From assembly GCA_018060465.1 (NCBI GenBank), contig JAGOVX010000003.1:1-44857 (forward strand): a stretch of DNA of 44,857 nucleotides, written 5' to 3'. The notes under the pieces are model-generated. The model saw only the letters and a program-made list of their open reading frames with translations, was not told the origin of the DNA and did not search any database. Made by a program: the position numbers and the translations under genes. Source of the stretch: Candidatus Saccharimonadota bacterium (GTDB lineage Bacteria > Patescibacteriota > Saccharimonadia > Saccharimonadales > Saccharimonadaceae). Below, piece after piece: positions 35,079 through 44,857 of the stretch; within the stretch, counting starts at the first letter, position 1; each line of letters begins with the position of its first letter.

Positions 35079-36722
35079 CTACATCATTCCTGGCATGCCG
35101 CCACCCATCGGTGGCATTGGCATCTCTTTTTCAGGGATGTCTACCACGAGTGCACCCATAGTTGCAGCCGTACTGGCAATGGAAACAGCATTCTGCACTG
35201 CTTCCTTGGTAACCCTAGTTGGGTCGATCACACCAGCCTTTTTCACATCTACCACGCCAGCTTCTGGCTTCATCACATCAATACCCATGCCTACCTTGGA
35301 TGCTTCCACTTGCGCAAGTAATGCCTCAGAGTTCAACCCAGCATTGGCAGTAATTTGCAAGAACGGCTGCCGCAAGGCTTGCTTCAAAATTTGACGACCA
35401 GCGCTTACGCTATCCGAGCCGTCTGCGCGTATCTTTGCAGCTAGATTCACTAATGTCACGCCGCCTCCCGCTACTATTCCTTCAGCCAAGGCTGCCTTGG
35501 TAGCCGCCACCGCATCATCAACGCGGAATTTCTTTTCATCGATTTCAGTTTCTGTCGCACCACCTACTTTTATAACAGCAACTTTTCCGCTCAGTGCGGC
35601 TGCTCGCTTTTCGAGCTGTTCCTTGTCATATTCGCTACTGGCATTGTTGGCTTGTGCCAAAATTTGCGCAACCCGAGCCTCTACATCAGCGGCACGCCCA
35701 GAACCCTCAACAATCGTAGTGTCATCTTTGCCTACAATCACTTTTCGTGCCGAGCCTACTACATCGAGTCCTGCGTTCTCAAACGTCAACCCTTTATCCT
35801 CGGAAATCACTTCAGCCCCAGTTAGCGTGGCCATATCTGCCATAATGTCCTTGCGTCGATCACCAAAGCTCGGCGCCTTTACTACGACAGTATTCAAAAT
35901 ACCCTTTAGTTTATTCAGTACTAGAATACTCAGTGCTTCGCCATCTACTTCGTCGGCCACAAGTACAATATCCTTCTTGCCAGCTTGCGCCAATTTTTCG
36001 ATCAATGGCAATAATTCGCTCGCGGTTGATATTTTCTTATCTGTAATAACGATCGATGGTTTTTCGTACACAGCTTCCTGCCGATTGGTGTCGGTAACAA
36101 AGAATGGACTTGCCCAGCCCTTGTCTAAGCTAAAGCCTTCTACTACTTCACTCTCCATCTCAAGGCCCTGACCAGCTTCTACTGTAATCACTGCATCTTT
36201 GCCTACCAAAGCGATCACATCAGCAATCAATTTACCAATCTGACTATCTCCGGCTGAAATAGTTGCGACTTCTGCTATCCGTTCCTTTTTGCCCTCAACA
36301 CTTTCGCTCAAACCATCGAGCGCAGCTACCACTTCTTTTCCTGCTTCCTCAATACCTTTTTTAAGCTCCATTGGGTTGTGGCCGGCCGCAATCAATCGAT
36401 TAGCTTCCTTAAGAATCTGGTAGGTCAACACCGTTACCGTGGTCGTGCCGTCACCTGCGACTTTGTTCAATTTGCTGGCAGCTTGCTTGATAAGTTCAGC
36501 ACCAACTTTGTAGCCCAATGTTTCGTCATCAACCTCTGGTAGTTCCATGCCTTCCGCTACTGTCACGCCATCATGCGTTACCGTGGGGCCACCGTACCCT
36601 TTGGCAATCACAACATTGCGGCCTTTCGGGCCATACGTTACTTTTACGGCATCGTATAGCGCCTTTGCACCACCTAGCACACGTGCACGCGCGTCATCAT
36701 CATAAAATACTTTTTTTGCCAT
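35079..36722 (-). CDS. groEL: Chaperonin GroEL
   Basis: 547 residues, normal length, with GDGTTTVTVLTYQIL (ATP site), the apical domain, and the GGM-rich tail (MPPMGGGMPGMM). Folds proteins as a ring with GroES. GAAAGGA within the end of the preceding 44-residue ORF is the ribosome binding site for ATG 36722. Heat-shock control is expected from the CIRCE element upstream of groES. Confidence 0.98.
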   Translation of the reverse strand: MAKKVFYDDDARARVLGGAKALYDAVKVTYGPKGRNVVIAKGYGGPTVTHDGVTVAEGMELPEVDDETLGYKVGAELIKQAASKLNKVAGDGTTTVTVLTYQILKEANRLIAAGHNPMELKKGIEEAGKEVVAALDGLSESVEGKKERIAEVATISAGDSQIGKLIADVIALVGKDAVITVEAGQGLEMESEVVEGFSLDKGWASPFFVTDTNRQEAVYEKPSIVITDKKISTASELLPLIEKLAQAGKKDIVLVADEVDGEALSILVLNKLKGILNTVVVKAPSFGDRRKDIMADMATLTGAEVISEDKGLTFENAGLDVVGSARKVIVGKDDTTIVEGSGRAADVEARVAQILAQANNASSEYDKEQLEKRAAALSGKVAVIKVGGATETEIDEKKFRVDDAVAATKAALAEGIVAGGGVTLVNLAAKIRADGSDSVSAGRQILKQALRQPFLQITANAGLNSEALLAQVEASKVGMGIDVMKPEAGVVDVKKAGVIDPTRVTKEAVQNAVSIASTAATMGALVVDIPEKEMPMPPMGGGMPGMM

Positions 36723-37224: not shown

Positions 37225-38460
37225 TCACACAATTTTTTTGAGAATCGAATGCAATTTCTTTAGCGCCATCAAATCAGGTCTAAAAATCTTCACAAAGTAG
37301 CCCAGCTGTTCCTCTAGTACGCCTCCGAAGCCTGCTTTGAACGCATATACCCCTTCTTGGTCTGGAACATTGCAGTGATTGCCCTTCGTCCCATAGAAGT
37401 TATACTCTGGAATTTTGTGTTTCATGGCATACTGCATCGCATACCAATGCAGTGCATATGGCGCATTGTAGCTTGCATATTCTCGTAGCGAGCCTCCTGT
37501 TAGGTACGTAACTTGATTGCCATACACAACAAACGTCGCTGCGGCAATTGGCAACCGCTCGGTAGAATTTTCAGCCATGTGCTTCAAACGATCTTTGTGC
37601 GTGTGTATCGCGGCGGTTATTTGCGCAATGGTTTTCTCTGATTTTTTATCCGTGTCATCTGCCAGCGATGCTTCCAACTTTTCAAGCACACTCTGTGAGG
37701 CTATTTTATACTCTGCGTAGTCGAGCTCGGCCACCATAAGCTGCACTCGGTCACTGCCAAAATGCGTTACTAGTGAGCTATAGTACTGCGCATCGCGACC
37801 ATCAAAACCTTTGCGGCCCTCTGTATCGGCCAAAATCGACAGGTAAACCGGTAGCTCATTTAGTTCAATCTGCCGTACATGAATACCAGATTTTAAACTT
37901 TTTCGAACGGCACGCCGTGTACGCTGAGAAAAGCTATCCATCAACATGTCTGGGCTCGTGAGTTCTTTCAAATTTTTTACAAAGTACCAGCGCAATTTTA
38001 TACTGTCGTGGTCGACACGTGCCGCTGAAAGTTTTGTGTAGCCACGTGAACTAAAATAGCGTTCGTAATGGTCTACTGTATAGCCATCATCAATCACTTC
38101 ACGATCTTCGCTCCAGTGGCGAGCTGCCACGTTTGGATTGATGGTGATTGAAAGTGCGTGGTGTTTTCGTGCAAAACTAGTGATATTGTGTACGAACTCC
38201 TGCGCCAGTGGCGCGTTGGTAAAATCAACCAGCGGCCCCTGCAAGCATTCAAACTGTTGGTACTTTCCTACGACAGGCCAGCTATACAGCAATGCAGCCG
38301 CAACAATTTTGCCGTTCTTCGAGCGCATACCTACAAAGTAGTGAGACCAGCCCACTTCCTGACGACGCCGTGCCATCGGAACCGACTGAAGAAAACTAGA
38401 CTCGGGGAATGACTCAGCAAATGATTCGAATTCGCTTTCAGTCAGCTCGCAAAATTTCAT
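37225..38460 (-). CDS. FemAB-family aminoacyltransferase (second copy)
   Basis: 411 residues; two GNAT-like lobes typical of FemAB/FemX, with a helical insertion at ~235-275. FemAB enzymes add amino acids from aminoacyl-tRNA to the peptidoglycan stem peptide. Motifs: SFLQSVPMARRRQEVGWSH near 22-40, ITINPN and late YNFYGTKGNHCNVPDQEGVY. It is a diverged paralog of the next gene upstream. An extended -10 TGC TAGAAT ends 8 nt before ATG 38460, so it can be transcribed independently as a near-leaderless mRNA. Confidence 0.9.
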   Translation of the reverse strand: MKFCELTESEFESFAESFPESSFLQSVPMARRRQEVGWSHYFVGMRSKNGKIVAAALLYSWPVVGKYQQFECLQGPLVDFTNAPLAQEFVHNITSFARKHHALSITINPNVAARHWSEDREVIDDGYTVDHYERYFSSRGYTKLSAARVDHDSIKLRWYFVKNLKELTSPDMLMDSFSQRTRRAVRKSLKSGIHVRQIELNELPVYLSILADTEGRKGFDGRDAQYYSSLVTHFGSDRVQLMVAELDYAEYKIASQSVLEKLEASLADDTDKKSEKTIAQITAAIHTHKDRLKHMAENSTERLPIAAATFVVYGNQVTYLTGGSLREYASYNAPYALHWYAMQYAMKHKIPEYNFYGTKGNHCNVPDQEGVYAFKAGFGGVLEEQLGYFVKIFRPDLMALKKLHSILKKIV

Positions 38461-38485
38461 CTGTACTCATTCTAGCACAAGGGGT

Positions 38486-39733
38486 TTAACGGCGCAGAGA
38501 TCGTAAAGTATTTTTGATCGCCAAGAGTATTGGGTGAAACGATACTTCAAAATAGCCCAGTTGTTCTTCCAGGACTCCACCAAAACCTGCCTTGAATTTG
38601 TAGATGCCTTCCTGAGATGGCGTACCTGAATGGTTGCCCTTTGTGCCAAAAAAGTTAAACCGCACCACCGAATGTTTCACGGCGTACTGCTGGGCGTACC
38701 ACTGAATGGCATATGGGCCACAATATTTAGCATATTGTTTTAGCGCACCACTTATCACGTAGCTCATTTCTTTACCGTATAGTACAAACATTGCGGCAGC
38801 GATTGGCAGCGTTGCGCCAGATTTTGCCATTTCTGCAATTTCGTCGAGCAAGGCTGTATAGTGATCGAGCGCTTCCTGCGCAACTCGTTCCGCAGTAGCT
38901 GCCTTCTTCTTGTCTTCCAATTGTGTTGCAACAGCAAGGTTCTTAGTTTCATTTTCTATGAGCTGACGAGTCGCCGCTTCGTAATCGGCAACATGTACCT
39001 CTGCCACCAAAAGTTTTACACGCTCCCTGCCGAACTGCTCGACCATCGCAGCATAATATGCCTCATCGTGGCCGCTATAGCCCCGACGATCTTCGGTTGC
39101 CTGCATAATTTTCATAAATACTGGCAGCTCTTGAATACCAATTTCACGTACGTGTACCCCCGATTTTTGGCTTTTACGAATAGACCACCTCGTTTGCTGA
39201 GCATAGCTAGCCAGTAACTCATCAGAACTCTTGATGGCTTGCAAATTTTTTACAAAAAACCACCGAAACATCGACTCGGTCATGTCCACGCGCGCGGTAG
39301 CTACTTGATGAAATCCAGCACTCCTCAGCAGCTCAATATATTTGAACGATGCATAGCCATCATCCAGTTTTGTTCTGTCTTCACCCCAATGTTGTGCCAA
39401 GATATTCGGGTTAATCGTCAGTTTTAGCGCCTTTTTTTGCGCCGTAAATTCGCGTAGCTCATTCAGAAAAAGGCTGGCCAGCTGTAGGTTGTTAAAATCA
39501 ACCAGTGGCCCCTGCAAACATTCATATTCAACATAGCCAAGTGCAACCGGCCATCGCTGCAACAGGGCTGCGGCGACTATTTTGCCTGCATCATTCTTCA
39601 GCCCTACAAAATCATGTCCCCACCCAGATAGCTCACGACGACGCGCCATTGGCGCAGACTGCAACAAACTTGCCGTTGGAAACGCCACTGCAAATGCTTC
39701 AAATTCTTCTTCTGTGAGTACGCCAAACTTCAT
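38486..39733 (-). CDS. FemAB-family aminoacyltransferase (first copy)
   Basis: 415 residues, same architecture as its neighbour: SLLQSAPMARRRELSGWGH near the N-terminus, LTINPN, a coiled-coil-like insertion at ~244-283, and FNFFGTKGNHSGTPSQEGIY near the end. The two copies probably add successive or different residues to a cross-bridge, as FemA/FemB do. A TACGAT box ends 7 nt before ATG 39733. Same strand as lysC-asd, which fits a peptidoglycan cluster. Confidence 0.9.
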   Translation of the reverse strand: MKFGVLTEEEFEAFAVAFPTASLLQSAPMARRRELSGWGHDFVGLKNDAGKIVAAALLQRWPVALGYVEYECLQGPLVDFNNLQLASLFLNELREFTAQKKALKLTINPNILAQHWGEDRTKLDDGYASFKYIELLRSAGFHQVATARVDMTESMFRWFFVKNLQAIKSSDELLASYAQQTRWSIRKSQKSGVHVREIGIQELPVFMKIMQATEDRRGYSGHDEAYYAAMVEQFGRERVKLLVAEVHVADYEAATRQLIENETKNLAVATQLEDKKKAATAERVAQEALDHYTALLDEIAEMAKSGATLPIAAAMFVLYGKEMSYVISGALKQYAKYCGPYAIQWYAQQYAVKHSVVRFNFFGTKGNHSGTPSQEGIYKFKAGFGGVLEEQLGYFEVSFHPILLAIKNTLRSLRR

Positions 39734-39761
39734 AGTGTGTATCGTATCATGTGATTAGTAA

Positions 39762-40874
39762 TTACTCGGTTGAAGGATCAGCAGACCCGACAAATCCTTT
39801 TTTAACCAACAACTCGGCCGTAAGCACCGAACCGCCAGCGGCACCTCGAAGCGTATTGTGAGCCAATGAGATAAAGTCCCAATCAAATAGTTTACCCTCG
39901 CGCAAGCGCCCCATCGTCACCCCCATACCATTCTCGTACCCGCTATCAACTCGACTTTGCGGGCGATCTGGTTCTTCAAAATATTGCAAAGGTTGTGATG
40001 GAGCTGACGGCAGATCCAGCCCAGTTAGCGCATTATTCTGGTTGAAGTCTGTGATTGCCTGCATAATCTGGCTTCTGGTTGGCACCGTCCGAAATGACAC
40101 GCCAACACTTGCCATATGTCCATCGAGCACCGGCACGCGCACACAGGTTGCCGAAATAGTCGGCACCGATGCGAGTTCGATTGATGCGCCGTGTACATTG
40201 CCCCAAATACGCAATGGTTCGCGCTCTGACTTTTCTTCCTCGCCATCGATAAACGGAATGATATTGCCTTGCATCTCTGGCCACGTGAGTAATGTGCGGC
40301 CCGCACCCGATACGGCTTGCATACTTGTTACCTGAGCGTTCATCGGAACGAATGTGCGCAGTGCACTCAGTACCATGACATACGACTGAATAGAGCAGTT
40401 TGGCTTTACGACGATGCATCCACTTGACCAACCCCGCAGTTTTCGCTGTTCATGAATCAACGCAAGATGTGCAGCATTTACCTCTGGTACGATCATCGGT
40501 ACGTCCTCTGACCAGCGATGGGCTGAATTGTTTGAAACAACCGCCACTCCTGCCGCCGCATAGCTATTCTCAATATCTCGTATACGCTCTTTTTCCAAAC
40601 TGATCGCAGAAAAAACCAGGTCGACCGACTCGGATATTGTCACTATATCTTCCACTACATCAGAAAGTTGCATGGCAGCCACCTGTTCGGGCAATGATAC
40701 TTCCATATTCCAGCGACCCTCAACGGCCTCGGCATATTTTTTACCAGCCGAGCGAGGTGACGCCGCAAGCGCCACAATCTCAAACCACGGATGATCTACA
40801 AGTAACGTAATAAGACGCTGGCCAACCATGCCTGTCGCCCCCAGAATACCCACTCGAATTTTCTTATTTTGCAT
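39762..40874 (-). CDS. asd: Aspartate-semialdehyde dehydrogenase
   Basis: 370 residues; reduces aspartyl phosphate to aspartate semialdehyde with NADPH. N-terminal GILGATGMVGQRL (9-21) binds NADP; active-site Cys160 is in VKPNCSIQSY, and a conserved His is in VLDGHMASVGV. The form is the archaeal/fungal type rather than the E. coli type. GAGG inside the lysC end (KKR-stop region) is its ribosome binding site, 2 bp after lysC; coupled. Confidence 0.95.
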   Translation of the reverse strand: MQNKKIRVGILGATGMVGQRLITLLVDHPWFEIVALAASPRSAGKKYAEAVEGRWNMEVSLPEQVAAMQLSDVVEDIVTISESVDLVFSAISLEKERIRDIENSYAAAGVAVVSNNSAHRWSEDVPMIVPEVNAAHLALIHEQRKLRGWSSGCIVVKPNCSIQSYVMVLSALRTFVPMNAQVTSMQAVSGAGRTLLTWPEMQGNIIPFIDGEEEKSEREPLRIWGNVHGASIELASVPTISATCVRVPVLDGHMASVGVSFRTVPTRSQIMQAITDFNQNNALTGLDLPSAPSQPLQYFEEPDRPQSRVDSGYENGMGVTMGRLREGKLFDWDFISLAHNTLRGAAGGSVLTAELLVKKGFVGSADPSTE

Positions 40875-40876
40875 AA

Positions 40877-42283
40877 TTACCTCTTTTTCACTAATTGAAA
40901 TGTATGATGCAAGCTTTTTATCGCCGTCACGGCATCAGCTGATTCTACGACAAATGAAATACTGCGCTCTGATGACCCATAGGAAATTGCGATAATTTCT
41001 ACACCACTCACGCCCATCGATGCAAATGTCTTGCCCGTCACACCAGGCAAATTGTACATATCATTACCCACCACCGCCACAATCGAAAGGCCATTTTTTA
41101 GCTGCACTATATCAACGTCCTTGCTGCTCATTTCATCCACAAGCGCGCTATGCACTTTTTCTACAGCCAATACGCCGCTACTTCCCTTTACGACAAACGA
41201 TATGTTGTGCTCTGATGATGCCTGCGAAATCATATATACATCGATTCGCTCTGACGCCAACGCACCAAATACTTTTGCGGCGACACTTGGGACACCAGTA
41301 ACGCCTTTTCCCTGCACTGTCAGTAACGACAGCTCCGACTTTACCGTAATTGCCTTTACGCCGCCATCATCAGTGTGCGCCGCGATCCGTGTACCAATCT
41401 GCTCTGGCTCGAACGTATTTTTTATAAAAATTGGAATATTTTTTAATGACGCAGGTACCATTGTTAACGGATGAAGCACCTTGGCACCAAAATACGAAAG
41501 CTCCGACGCTTCCGCATACGACAACTGAGCAATCGTTTTTGCCTCAGGAATCAAGCGAGGGTCGGCTGTCATAACCCCTGTCACGTCTGTCCATATCCAC
41601 ACTTGCTTCGCATCAAGGCAATAGCCGAGGATTGTTGCAGTGTAGTCGGATGCACCCCTGCCTAGTGTTGTAATTTTCCCATCGACTGTTTGGCCAATAA
41701 AGCCAGTCACTACTGGTATGGTGTTACTATCGAGCAAAGGCCCCAGCACCGACACCACCCGACCAGTCGACTTGTCGAGAAATGGTTCGGCATCTGTAAA
41801 ATGATCAGATGTTACTATCAACCGAGTCGCTTCTACTGGCTCTGCAGAGTGGCCGGAATTTGTAATCGCCGCAGCCACCACAACAATACTAAAACGCTCT
41901 CCAAATGACACAACGCCATCGTATTGCTGGCTTGAACACTGTGCTGCAGCCTGAATCTCCTCGAGGGATTCTTTTAATTCATCTCCCAGTGCATCAATTG
42001 CGTGGCGCATTTCGTTGGCACGTTCAGCTGGTACGGCAAGTTCGTCTACTGTGCGACGATGCTTTGCTACGATATCTTCCAGCACTGCCCTAAGCTCTTT
42101 TGTGTGCCTAGTTGCGGCAAGTTCTGTCGCCCGTATTAGCATGTCAGTTACTCCTGCCATAGCAGATGTAACTACCACAATACGACCTGGAGAACGTGCA
42201 ACAATAGCGGCAACATTACGTATTCGTTCGGCGTCGCCGACAGACGAACCGCCAAACTTCATTACTGTAACTGTTTTTTTCAT
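40877..42283 (-). CDS. lysC: Aspartate kinase
   Basis: 468 residues; phosphorylates aspartate, the entry to the aspartate-family pathway. MKFGGSSVGDAERI opens the kinase domain; two C-terminal ACT domains (~320-390 and ~400-468) suggest feedback control. Monofunctional (no homoserine dehydrogenase part). A TATAAA ends 8 nt before ATG 42283. Divergent from the aminotransferase gene, with which it shares a 68-bp promoter region. Confidence 0.96.
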   Translation of the reverse strand: MKKTVTVMKFGGSSVGDAERIRNVAAIVARSPGRIVVVTSAMAGVTDMLIRATELAATRHTKELRAVLEDIVAKHRRTVDELAVPAERANEMRHAIDALGDELKESLEEIQAAAQCSSQQYDGVVSFGERFSIVVVAAAITNSGHSAEPVEATRLIVTSDHFTDAEPFLDKSTGRVVSVLGPLLDSNTIPVVTGFIGQTVDGKITTLGRGASDYTATILGYCLDAKQVWIWTDVTGVMTADPRLIPEAKTIAQLSYAEASELSYFGAKVLHPLTMVPASLKNIPIFIKNTFEPEQIGTRIAAHTDDGGVKAITVKSELSLLTVQGKGVTGVPSVAAKVFGALASERIDVYMISQASSEHNISFVVKGSSGVLAVEKVHSALVDEMSSKDVDIVQLKNGLSIVAVVGNDMYNLPGVTGKTFASMGVSGVEIIAISYGSSERSISFVVESADAVTAIKSLHHTFQLVKKR

Positions 42284-42351
42284 AGTCAGTATTTATATTT
42301 TACTCTAGGACATCATTCTGGGCTAGAGTGCCCGACTGATATACTAGATAT

Positions 42352-43611
42352 ATGACAAAACGAATTATCCATGAACACGAATCAAATGTTGCTTCATACA
42401 ACCGTGCGTTTCCCTTTGTAATACAGTCCGCCAAGGGCTCTCTCATCACCGATGATGACGGCAAAGAATATATAGATTTTTTCAGTGGTGCTGGCGCCAA
42501 TAATTATGGCCACAACCCCGAGGCACCAAAACAAGCCTTGCTGCGATATATACAAAGCGACGGAATAAATAACAGCCTCGATATGGCAACGACAGCAAAA
42601 ACTGAGTTTATCGACGCGTTTTACGAGATTATTCTCAAGCCACGAAACTATGACTATCGGTTGCAATTTACTGGCCCTACCGGTACGAATGCGGTCGAGG
42701 CAGCCCTGAAACTAGTTCGAAAAAATACCTCACGTAAAGGTATCGTATCGTTTACTCGTGGCTTTCATGGCGTGAGCCTTGGTTCACTGGCTGCCACCAG
42801 CAATACCTACTTCCGCGAAGCTGCTGGTGTTGAGCTACACGACGTGTCGTTTATCGACTACGATAGCGGCGAACTGGCAGATTCTTTGGCAAAGCTTGAA
42901 CATCAATTTGCCGATATCATCCAAGGCGATGGGCTTCCAGCTGGTGTAATAGTGGAAACAACTCAAGGCGAAGGTGGGGTGAACTCAGCACGACCAGAGT
43001 GGCTGCAAACATTACGCTCGTTAACCGAGCAACACGGCGTCTTACTTATTATCGATGATATCCAGGCAGGATGCGGTCGAAGCGGCGATTTCTTTAGCTT
43101 TGAAAAAGCCGGTATTGTACCCGACGTTGTCACCCTCTCGAAGTCTATATCCGGATACGGCTCGCCTATGTCACTCGTGTTAATTCGGCCCGAATATGAC
43201 GTATGGCGCCCCGCCGAACATAATGGAACATTTCGTGGCAACAATCATGCATTCGTAACTGCCAAAGCTGCGCTAGAGGAGTATTGGAAAACCGACCAAC
43301 TCGCCGTCAGCGTTGAACACAAGGCAGCTATCATTCGTTCAGCGCTCGAAAAAATGGCCTCGGAGCACCCTAAGCTTGGACTATACGTAAAGGGACGAGG
43401 CTTTCTACAAGGTATATCATTTGCCAACCCTTCTACTGCTGCAGACGTAGGAAAAACAGCCTTCGCACACGGTCTCATCGTAGAACGAGCCGGTACAGAA
43501 GATGAAGTTGTAAAGCTGATGCCTGCGCTTACCATTGATGAAGCAACCTTGCTAAAAGGCCTCGACATACTTGCGGCAAGCATTACCCAAGTTGCCGCTA
43601 CCGCCAACTAA
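42352..43611 (+). CDS. Diaminobutyrate-2-oxoglutarate-type aminotransferase
   Basis: 419 residues, class III PLP aminotransferase: GPTGTNAVEAALKL (PLP phosphate region), IIDDIQAGCGRSGDFFSFE with D235 and PLP Lys264 in TLSKSISGYG. The closest type I know is EctB/Dat, which turns aspartate semialdehyde plus glutamate into L-2,4-diaminobutyrate. No ectA or ectC is near, so ectoine synthesis is not indicated. TATACT (42340-42345) ends 6 nt before ATG, so leaderless. It sits beside lysC-asd, which make its substrate. Confidence 0.85.
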   Translation: MTKRIIHEHESNVASYNRAFPFVIQSAKGSLITDDDGKEYIDFFSGAGANNYGHNPEAPKQALLRYIQSDGINNSLDMATTAKTEFIDAFYEIILKPRNYDYRLQFTGPTGTNAVEAALKLVRKNTSRKGIVSFTRGFHGVSLGSLAATSNTYFREAAGVELHDVSFIDYDSGELADSLAKLEHQFADIIQGDGLPAGVIVETTQGEGGVNSARPEWLQTLRSLTEQHGVLLIIDDIQAGCGRSGDFFSFEKAGIVPDVVTLSKSISGYGSPMSLVLIRPEYDVWRPAEHNGTFRGNNHAFVTAKAALEEYWKTDQLAVSVEHKAAIIRSALEKMASEHPKLGLYVKGRGFLQGISFANPSTAADVGKTAFAHGLIVERAGTEDEVVKLMPALTIDEATLLKGLDILAASITQVAATAN

Positions 43612-43621
43612 CTACCGGTAC

Positions 43622-44857
43622 TTACTTTTTCTTTGATAGTACGTTTCGAATAGCGTCGCGTACTGTTGCTGGTTCATCCCATGGGAAAATGTCGTGACCA
43701 CGTTCAATCGTCTTTTCGTGCCCTTTACCAAGCGTAATCACCACGTCATCTTTTGAAGAAACCCGGGTCATAGCAAACTCAATTGCATCTGTTCGATTTT
43801 CTATCAAAAACAGATTCTTTTCGCGCACCTTACCGCCTTTCTCAGCACCTTTCGCCATGTCCTCGAGAATCTGCATGCCTGGTTCATCACGATTCTCCTC
43901 CTCGGTTAGGATCACTTCATCACAGTACTTTGCTGAAATTTCACCTTGGATAGGACGTTTCATAACATCACGATGTGCCGGACTACCATACACACATACC
44001 AATTTTCCCTTTACGGTAGGTCGCAGTGCGCTAAAAACTTTCTCAAAGGCATCGGGTGTACCTGCATAATCAATAATCACTCTGAAGGCCTGGCCTTCAT
44101 CCACCGGCATCATACGACACGGAACTCCGGTAAGTGCGGCGATTCCATGCTCTATTTGCTCTTTCGTGAGGCCCAATTCGCGCCCGACCGCAACTGCTGC
44201 CATAGCATTTAGTACATTGAATGCGCCCGGCATATGCATCGTCAGACGATACGTGTCAGGGCCAGCTTTTACTGTGAACTGGCTGTGGTCAACCGCTAGA
44301 TTTACTGTTGTAGCAAGTACATCGGCTTTTTCAAAGCCATAGCTTACGCGGCGAGGTGTTGTGTGCAAAAATTCCTCAGCTGCAGGATCTTCAGCATAGG
44401 CAATTCCCAGCCCGTTTTTATTTTTCGCCACCAGCTGGAACAGTTTTCGCTTATCCTGTTTGTAGCGTTCAAATGTCCCGTGGTAGTCTAGATGCTCGTG
44501 CGTTACATTTGTCATGATACCGATTTGCATATCTAGTCCCCACACTCGATGTTGCGCTAGTGCATGGCTGGTAGACTCAATCACCAACCATTCAGCTCCT
44601 TGTTCAACAAAACGCTTTAAGCGCTTTTGCAGTAGTGGAACTGGAACCGTCGACATGTGCTCATCTTCATCATGCAAATCATCCAAATAGCCATACTGCG
44701 TCGAACTAAGTACGGCAACCTTGTAGCCTGCCTCTTTCATCATGGTAAAAATGAGATTGGTTGTAGTTGTCTTCCCATTCGTACCCGTAACACCAATACA
44801 CTTTAGCTTGCGCGCAGGAAACCCTTCCTTTGCCGAGTACGCTATACTTTCCAACCG
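43622..44857 (-). CDS. murE: MurE-type UDP-MurNAc-peptide ligase, partial
   Basis: The frame continues past the right edge; at least 411 codons are visible. GVTGTNGKTTTTNLIF is the ATP loop, THEHLDYHGTFERYKQDKRKLF contains the carbamoyl-Lys-type motif, and the C-terminal domain ends the ORF. MurE adds the third, diamino residue to the stem peptide. Where E. coli has DNPR (diaminopimelate selection) this reads EENR (TEEENRDEP), so the amino acid added may differ. It converges with the diaminobutyrate aminotransferase. Confidence 0.9.
   Translation of the reverse strand, partial: RLESIAYSAKEGFPARKLKCIGVTGTNGKTTTTNLIFTMMKEAGYKVAVLSSTQYGYLDDLHDEDEHMSTVPVPLLQKRLKRFVEQGAEWLVIESTSHALAQHRVWGLDMQIGIMTNVTHEHLDYHGTFERYKQDKRKLFQLVAKNKNGLGIAYAEDPAAEEFLHTTPRRVSYGFEKADVLATTVNLAVDHSQFTVKAGPDTYRLTMHMPGAFNVLNAMAAVAVGRELGLTKEQIEHGIAALTGVPCRMMPVDEGQAFRVIIDYAGTPDAFEKVFSALRPTVKGKLVCVYGSPAHRDVMKRPIQGEISAKYCDEVILTEEENRDEPGMQILEDMAKGAEKGGKVREKNLFLIENRTDAIEFAMTRVSSKDDVVITLGKGHEKTIERGHDIFPWDEPATVRDAIRNVLSKKK

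Follow-up and report, generated by a model that had tools for sequence, protein, structure and literature searches.

Which amino acid fills the third position of the peptidoglycan stem when a gene for a diaminobutyrate-type aminotransferase lies directly beside murE is the question raised by the right end of contig JAGOVX010000003.1 of a Candidatus Saccharimonadota bacterium (assembly GCA_018060465.1). The window analysed here, 44,857 nucleotides long, is this entire contig (C11 of genome G000). The genome comprises 884,716 bases in 63 contigs, is 91.4% complete and belongs to a tiny-genome bacterium that probably lives on other bacteria. The stem amino acid determines the cross-linking of the wall and its recognition by hydrolases and immune receptors, and walls containing diaminobutyrate are known in some Actinobacteria. 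Reading from the genes, we propose with a probability of about 0.72 that the cassette formed by lysC, asd, ectB and murE is the supply line for the third stem residue, which would be L-2,4-diaminobutyrate, and that the wall is probably built with this amino acid instead of lysine or diaminopimelate (DAP).

The initial annotation had described LysC, Asd, a class III aminotransferase, MurE and two FemAB enzymes as neighbours, and all of them were found. The minus strand carries groEL (35079-36722), fem1 (37225-38460), fem2 (38486-39733), asd (39762-40874) and lysC (40877-42283); ectB follows on the plus strand (42352-43611) and murE again on the minus strand (43622-44857), its 5' end being cut by the contig end. 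The gap between lysC and asd is only 2 bases, with fem2 28 bases further on and fem1 another 25, and ectB starts 68 bases from the divergent lysC and ends 10 bases from the convergent murE. Promoter and terminator scans gave scores near the shuffle mean. The first two enzymes had been correctly named, since the aspartate kinase LysC, which has ACT domains, and the aspartate-semialdehyde dehydrogenase Asd passed their curated cutoffs (403 bits against 209 for TIGR00657 and 341 against 301 for TIGR00978, respectively). The proposal that the aminotransferase forms diaminobutyrate also gained support, as it passes the EctB equivalog model TIGR02407 (578 bits, cutoff 552) as a predicted L-2,4-diaminobutyrate:2-oxoglutarate aminotransferase. 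Its nearest solved structures are diaminobutyrate-2-oxoglutarate transaminases (E 4e-137), it is about 50-55% identical to the EctB of ectoine operons, and G000 has no other candidate class III aminotransferase. MurE, the third-residue Mur ligase, scored 367 bits against a cutoff of 257 (TIGR01085), with the Mur ligase middle and C-terminal domains (PF08245, PF02875) both present. The two fem genes encode predicted FemA-like aminoacyl-tRNA-dependent peptidoglycan transferases (PF02388, 293 bits for fem1 and 309 for fem2); the best relative of both in the Protein Data Bank, over nearly the full length, is Staphylococcal FemA (1lrz), although the presumed acceptor side chain in G000 would be two carbons shorter than lysine.

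To look for other sources of a third residue, the frames of the whole genome were searched with protein queries and Pfam profiles. MurC, MurD, MurF, Ddl, MraY, MurG, FtsW, FtsI and FtsZ are present elsewhere in the genome, and the murE of the window is the only one. No match was obtained in G000 with DapA, DapB, DapD, DapE, DapF and LysA of Escherichia coli, nor, at E values up to 10, with DapA, DapB, LysA and Ddh taken from relatives of the same family. The Pfam profiles for DHDPS, DAP epimerase and homoserine dehydrogenase likewise found nothing in G000, and gave matches in the controls. It had been noted that no dapA or lysine-route genes lie near the cassette, and this extends to the whole assembly, in which neither a dap nor a lys pathway was detected. 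A predicted diaminobutyrate route is present and no rival third-residue route was detected in a genome that is 91% complete.

Such queries do find pathways in this family. In the relative G016 the genes for LysA, LysC, DapB, DapA and Asd lie in a row, and in G028 the order is LysC, Ddh, Asd, DapA, DapB, with a Ddh that passes the DAP dehydrogenase model; because these DAP clusters were detected, the pathway queries can be said to work here. An aspartate kinase above cutoff occurs in only 4 of 121 family genomes (G000, G046, G016 and G028), and each of the four has it clustered with the genes of a diamino-acid route. Since the kinase is always found in such company, there is strong support for LysC and Asd of G000 serving diamino-acid supply. 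The clusters of G016 and G028 differ from that of G000 in their end product, which would be DAP or lysine rather than diaminobutyrate, and the MurE of G028 reads EDPR, closer to the DNPR motif of DAP-adding enzymes than the window MurE.

The arrangement of the locus can be compared throughout the family. In most of the mapped relatives without ectB it reads ValS, FemX, TsaD, a Mur-like gene, MurE, FemX and GroEL, and GroEL is near murE in all ten mapped relatives lacking a working ectB. The groEL of the window is this conserved flank of the murE-femX-groEL locus; it lies outside the pathway and marks the insertion site, given that ectB, lysC, asd and the two FemA-like genes are inserted between it and murE. 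In G046, which belongs to another genus, ectB, lysC, asd and FemX stand between murE and groEL, and because the same order recurs there the association of murE, ectB, lysC and asd is more than chance. In G193 murE has ectB as its immediate neighbour on the same strand, with no lysC or asd nearby. The Fem proteins of G046 and G193 differ from those of the window. Immediately upstream of murE, members of the family often have a gene for a degenerate second Mur ligase-like protein with PF08245 only (L030:1091-2158, minus strand; L084:12730-13803, plus strand); that of G000 lies on another contig beside a FemX gene. Contamination as the origin of the cassette was rejected, the flanks being syntenic with the family and the GroEL 88% identical to that of G017 from the same genus; it is also contradicted by the G+C content, 0.47-0.51 for the cassette genes and 0.46 for the genome.

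The ectB genes do not share one origin. The EctB of G193 falls beside an Alcaligenaceae EctB in the tree of this enzyme (66% identity, fork at 97/94), and G000 and G046 pair together at 99/98, apart from G193. The MurE tree keeps two pairs apart, one of G000 with G046 (100/99) and one of G193 with G217 (100/100). Since both trees place G000/G046 and G193 separately, ectB appears to have been acquired twice; the sequences indicate that on two or more occasions, and from unlike sources, it was placed next to murE, each time accompanied by identical MurE changes. Named genomes were also scanned for EctB, and no Saccharibacteria were among the matches. Lateral transfer of murE from outside the family is unsupported, for the window MurE falls within the family, though paired with G046 and not with its own genus.

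These changes are two (residue numbers follow the published E. coli numbering, first Met excluded). In the window MurE the motif DYAGTPD (44051-44071, minus strand) carries Gly (44060-44062) where His or Ser is usual (His359 in E. coli), and a Pro codon (43979-43981, minus strand) corresponding to Gly386 lies in GSPAHRD, the loop bearing the substrate Arg. Among 48 type I MurEs, His359Gly and Gly386Pro are common to the pairs G000/G046 and G193/G217; the Pro is confined to these four genomes, and none of the other type I MurEs has either residue, except for the Gly in G189. When 4,000 quadruples of similar structure were drawn as a null, with G189 set aside as carrying the Gly, 3,997 shared no residue, three shared one and none shared two, in a test that leaves some relatedness effects in. 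A DNA search for the Gly motif identified 5 of 394 family genomes (G000, G046, G193, G189 and G217), three of which (G000, G046 and G193) have ectB beside murE; by comparison, an intact ectB is found in four family genomes and a broken copy in one. The motif is absent from G124, where ectB lies by genes for non-ribosomal peptide synthetases (NRPS), and from G103, where it is broken.

The remaining genomes on these two lists deserve a description of their own. In G189 a class III aminotransferase is encoded directly upstream of the Gly-motif murE (L293:507-1760, plus strand). The enzyme is divergent; it comes closest to the diaminobutyrate subfamily, scores under the cutoff, and may make another diamino acid. 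The ectB of G124, a genome of about 0.7 Mb, stands at the end of a run (L133:8600 to L134:1232, G124:C1) with a carbamoyltransferase and AMP-binding and condensation-domain NRPS genes, which looks like an unexpected natural-product cluster with a diaminobutyrate supply. In G103 the gene has internal stops and lies in an unrelated locus (L003, G103:C49), and the MurE of this genome retains the usual His.

The window MurE resembles the meso-DAP-adding enzyme of E. coli (DNPR) and the L-Lys-adding enzyme of Staphylococcus aureus (DNPA) in its middle and C-terminal domains, in the substrate Arg of the GDRD loop and in the GKGHE motif. It is unlike them in the Gly and Pro of the pocket region and in its reading of EEENR (43889-43903, minus strand) where the alignment with solved and E. 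coli MurE places DDNPR, so that EENR stands in the position of the DNPR of meso-DAP-adding MurE, whose contacts have been described (PMC3829189). In the family, MurE also has a short N-terminus: no more than about 40-60 residues precede the P-loop (L092-L120), the N-terminal UDP-binding domain of E. coli and S. aureus MurE is missing, and Pfam finds no such domain in the full-length MurE of G046, the window copy being cut by the contig end. MurE pocket motifs vary between groups of the family. A second family MurE type (for example in G077, G045 and G016; L275-L290, L292) has DEESY or similar and GMGHE or GLGHE, and is without the Arg of DNPR. The family-wide EEDDR was considered as a diaminobutyrate signature and rejected, as it also occurs in relatives without ectB.

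From these genes we infer the following order of events, in which the enzyme activities, the substrate of MurE, the function assigned to the FemA-like proteins and the composition of the wall are all predictions. LysC and Asd would convert aspartate to L-aspartate-4-semialdehyde, EctB would transaminate this with glutamate to L-2,4-diaminobutyrate, and MurE would add the latter at stem position 3. MurF, MraY, MurG and the synthases would then complete the wall, and the FemA-like enzymes would probably extend the bridge from the side-chain amino group. Elsewhere, L-diaminobutyrate is found at stem position 3 in Clavibacter (PMC9603630) and is counted among the rare third residues (PMC3681970). 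The Microbacteriaceae peptidoglycan (Clavibacter, type B2-gamma) thus carries the amino acid where we predict it for G000; the G000 lineage differs in being unrelated and tiny-genomed and in its predicted FemAB route, and its wall is a prediction from genes.

Several observations weigh against this proposal. About 9% of the genome is possibly missing, so the gene absences are not final. In G193 (89% complete) neither LysC nor Asd was detected, which leaves the source of the semialdehyde unexplained, and G124 (97% complete) has ectB with no lysC or asd detected; EctB in these two genomes needs another semialdehyde source or has a different role. In G217 (85% complete) the altered MurE is present and no ectB was detected. 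Incomplete assemblies may account for some of the missing genes, less so for G124. G000 also contains an orphan threonine synthase-like gene (L070:8893-10077, plus strand), whose match to known enzymes is limited to roughly their first 330 residues. Lastly, in E. coli MurE the carboxylate at the L-centre of DAP is bound by Arg389, three residues from Gly386 (PMC9434261), and the altered MurE retains this Arg that binds DAP carboxylates; because it is kept, the motif alone does not tell which amino acid is used.

The gaps in G193 and G124 lend themselves to another explanation, in which EctB makes diaminobutyrate for a different use (a free solute, a polyamine precursor or a secreted product) and what MurE adds is scavenged lysine or another diamino acid from the host. 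An aspartate kinase scoring above cutoff is lacking in most relatives, which presumably scavenge their third residue, and the NRPS genes beside the ectB of G124 mean that EctB can serve other ends in the family. We consider this explanation unlikely for G000, although it is the most probable of the alternatives: neither EctA, EctC, EctD nor any NRPS was detected in G000, ectB adjoins murE in three genomes after two acquisitions, both MurE changes occur only there and in G217, and genomes whose ectB lies away from murE do not have the Gly motif. A variant or remnant of the ectoine pathway, suggested by EctB being an ectoine-type enzyme of the same family as that of ectoine synthesis, was rejected and is the least probable origin. 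EctA, EctC and EctD of an ordinary ectoine operon (L172) had no match in G000 at E values up to 10, the Pfam EctC profile (PF06339) found nothing in G000 although the control genomes were silent as well, and the neighbours of ectB in the window are instead murE, lysC, asd and the FemAB genes.

The initial annotation had left open whether diaminobutyrate lies in the stem peptide or in the bridge, and diaminobutyrate in one or the other is supported by the absent dap and lys routes, the recurring cassette and the MurE changes that track ectB. The bridge has in its favour the two FemAB-type transferases in the same run and the D-diaminobutyrate that serves as a bridge residue in part of the B2-gamma walls of Clavibacter (PMC9603630). 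It is nevertheless improbable, and stem position 3 is more likely, because it is MurE that varies together with ectB and because FemAB enzymes take their residues from aminoacyl-tRNA. We know of no diaminobutyryl-tRNA route. The Fem proteins of G046 and G193, being unlike those of the window, also argue against the bridge. Marginally less probable again is that the product of LysC and Asd goes into threonine, methionine or lysine, ectB being an unrelated neighbour. Both enzymes are common to these routes, and the orphan ThrC-like gene would fit; homoserine dehydrogenase, however, was found neither in G000 nor in the seven relatives searched, DapA, DapB and LysA are lacking from the G000 matches, and the grouping of lysC, asd and ectB recurs in another genus.

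If diaminobutyrate is indeed the third stem residue in G000, this would be, to our knowledge, the first genetic evidence for diaminobutyrate walls in Patescibacteria; a literature search gave no report linking diaminobutyrate with the walls of Saccharibacteria. The two candidate residues could serve as markers of MurE specificity, and the wall chemistry of uncultured organisms would become predictable from sequence. For the family as a whole, it is about an even chance that the third residue of the wall can be switched as a module, with EctB gained by some members and DapA/DapB or Ddh by others, and that MurE adapts once ectB has landed next to it, so that a diaminobutyrate-specific MurE evolved at least twice with the same two changes in the pocket region. 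Tiny genomes would in this way regain autonomy over their walls through gene transfer.

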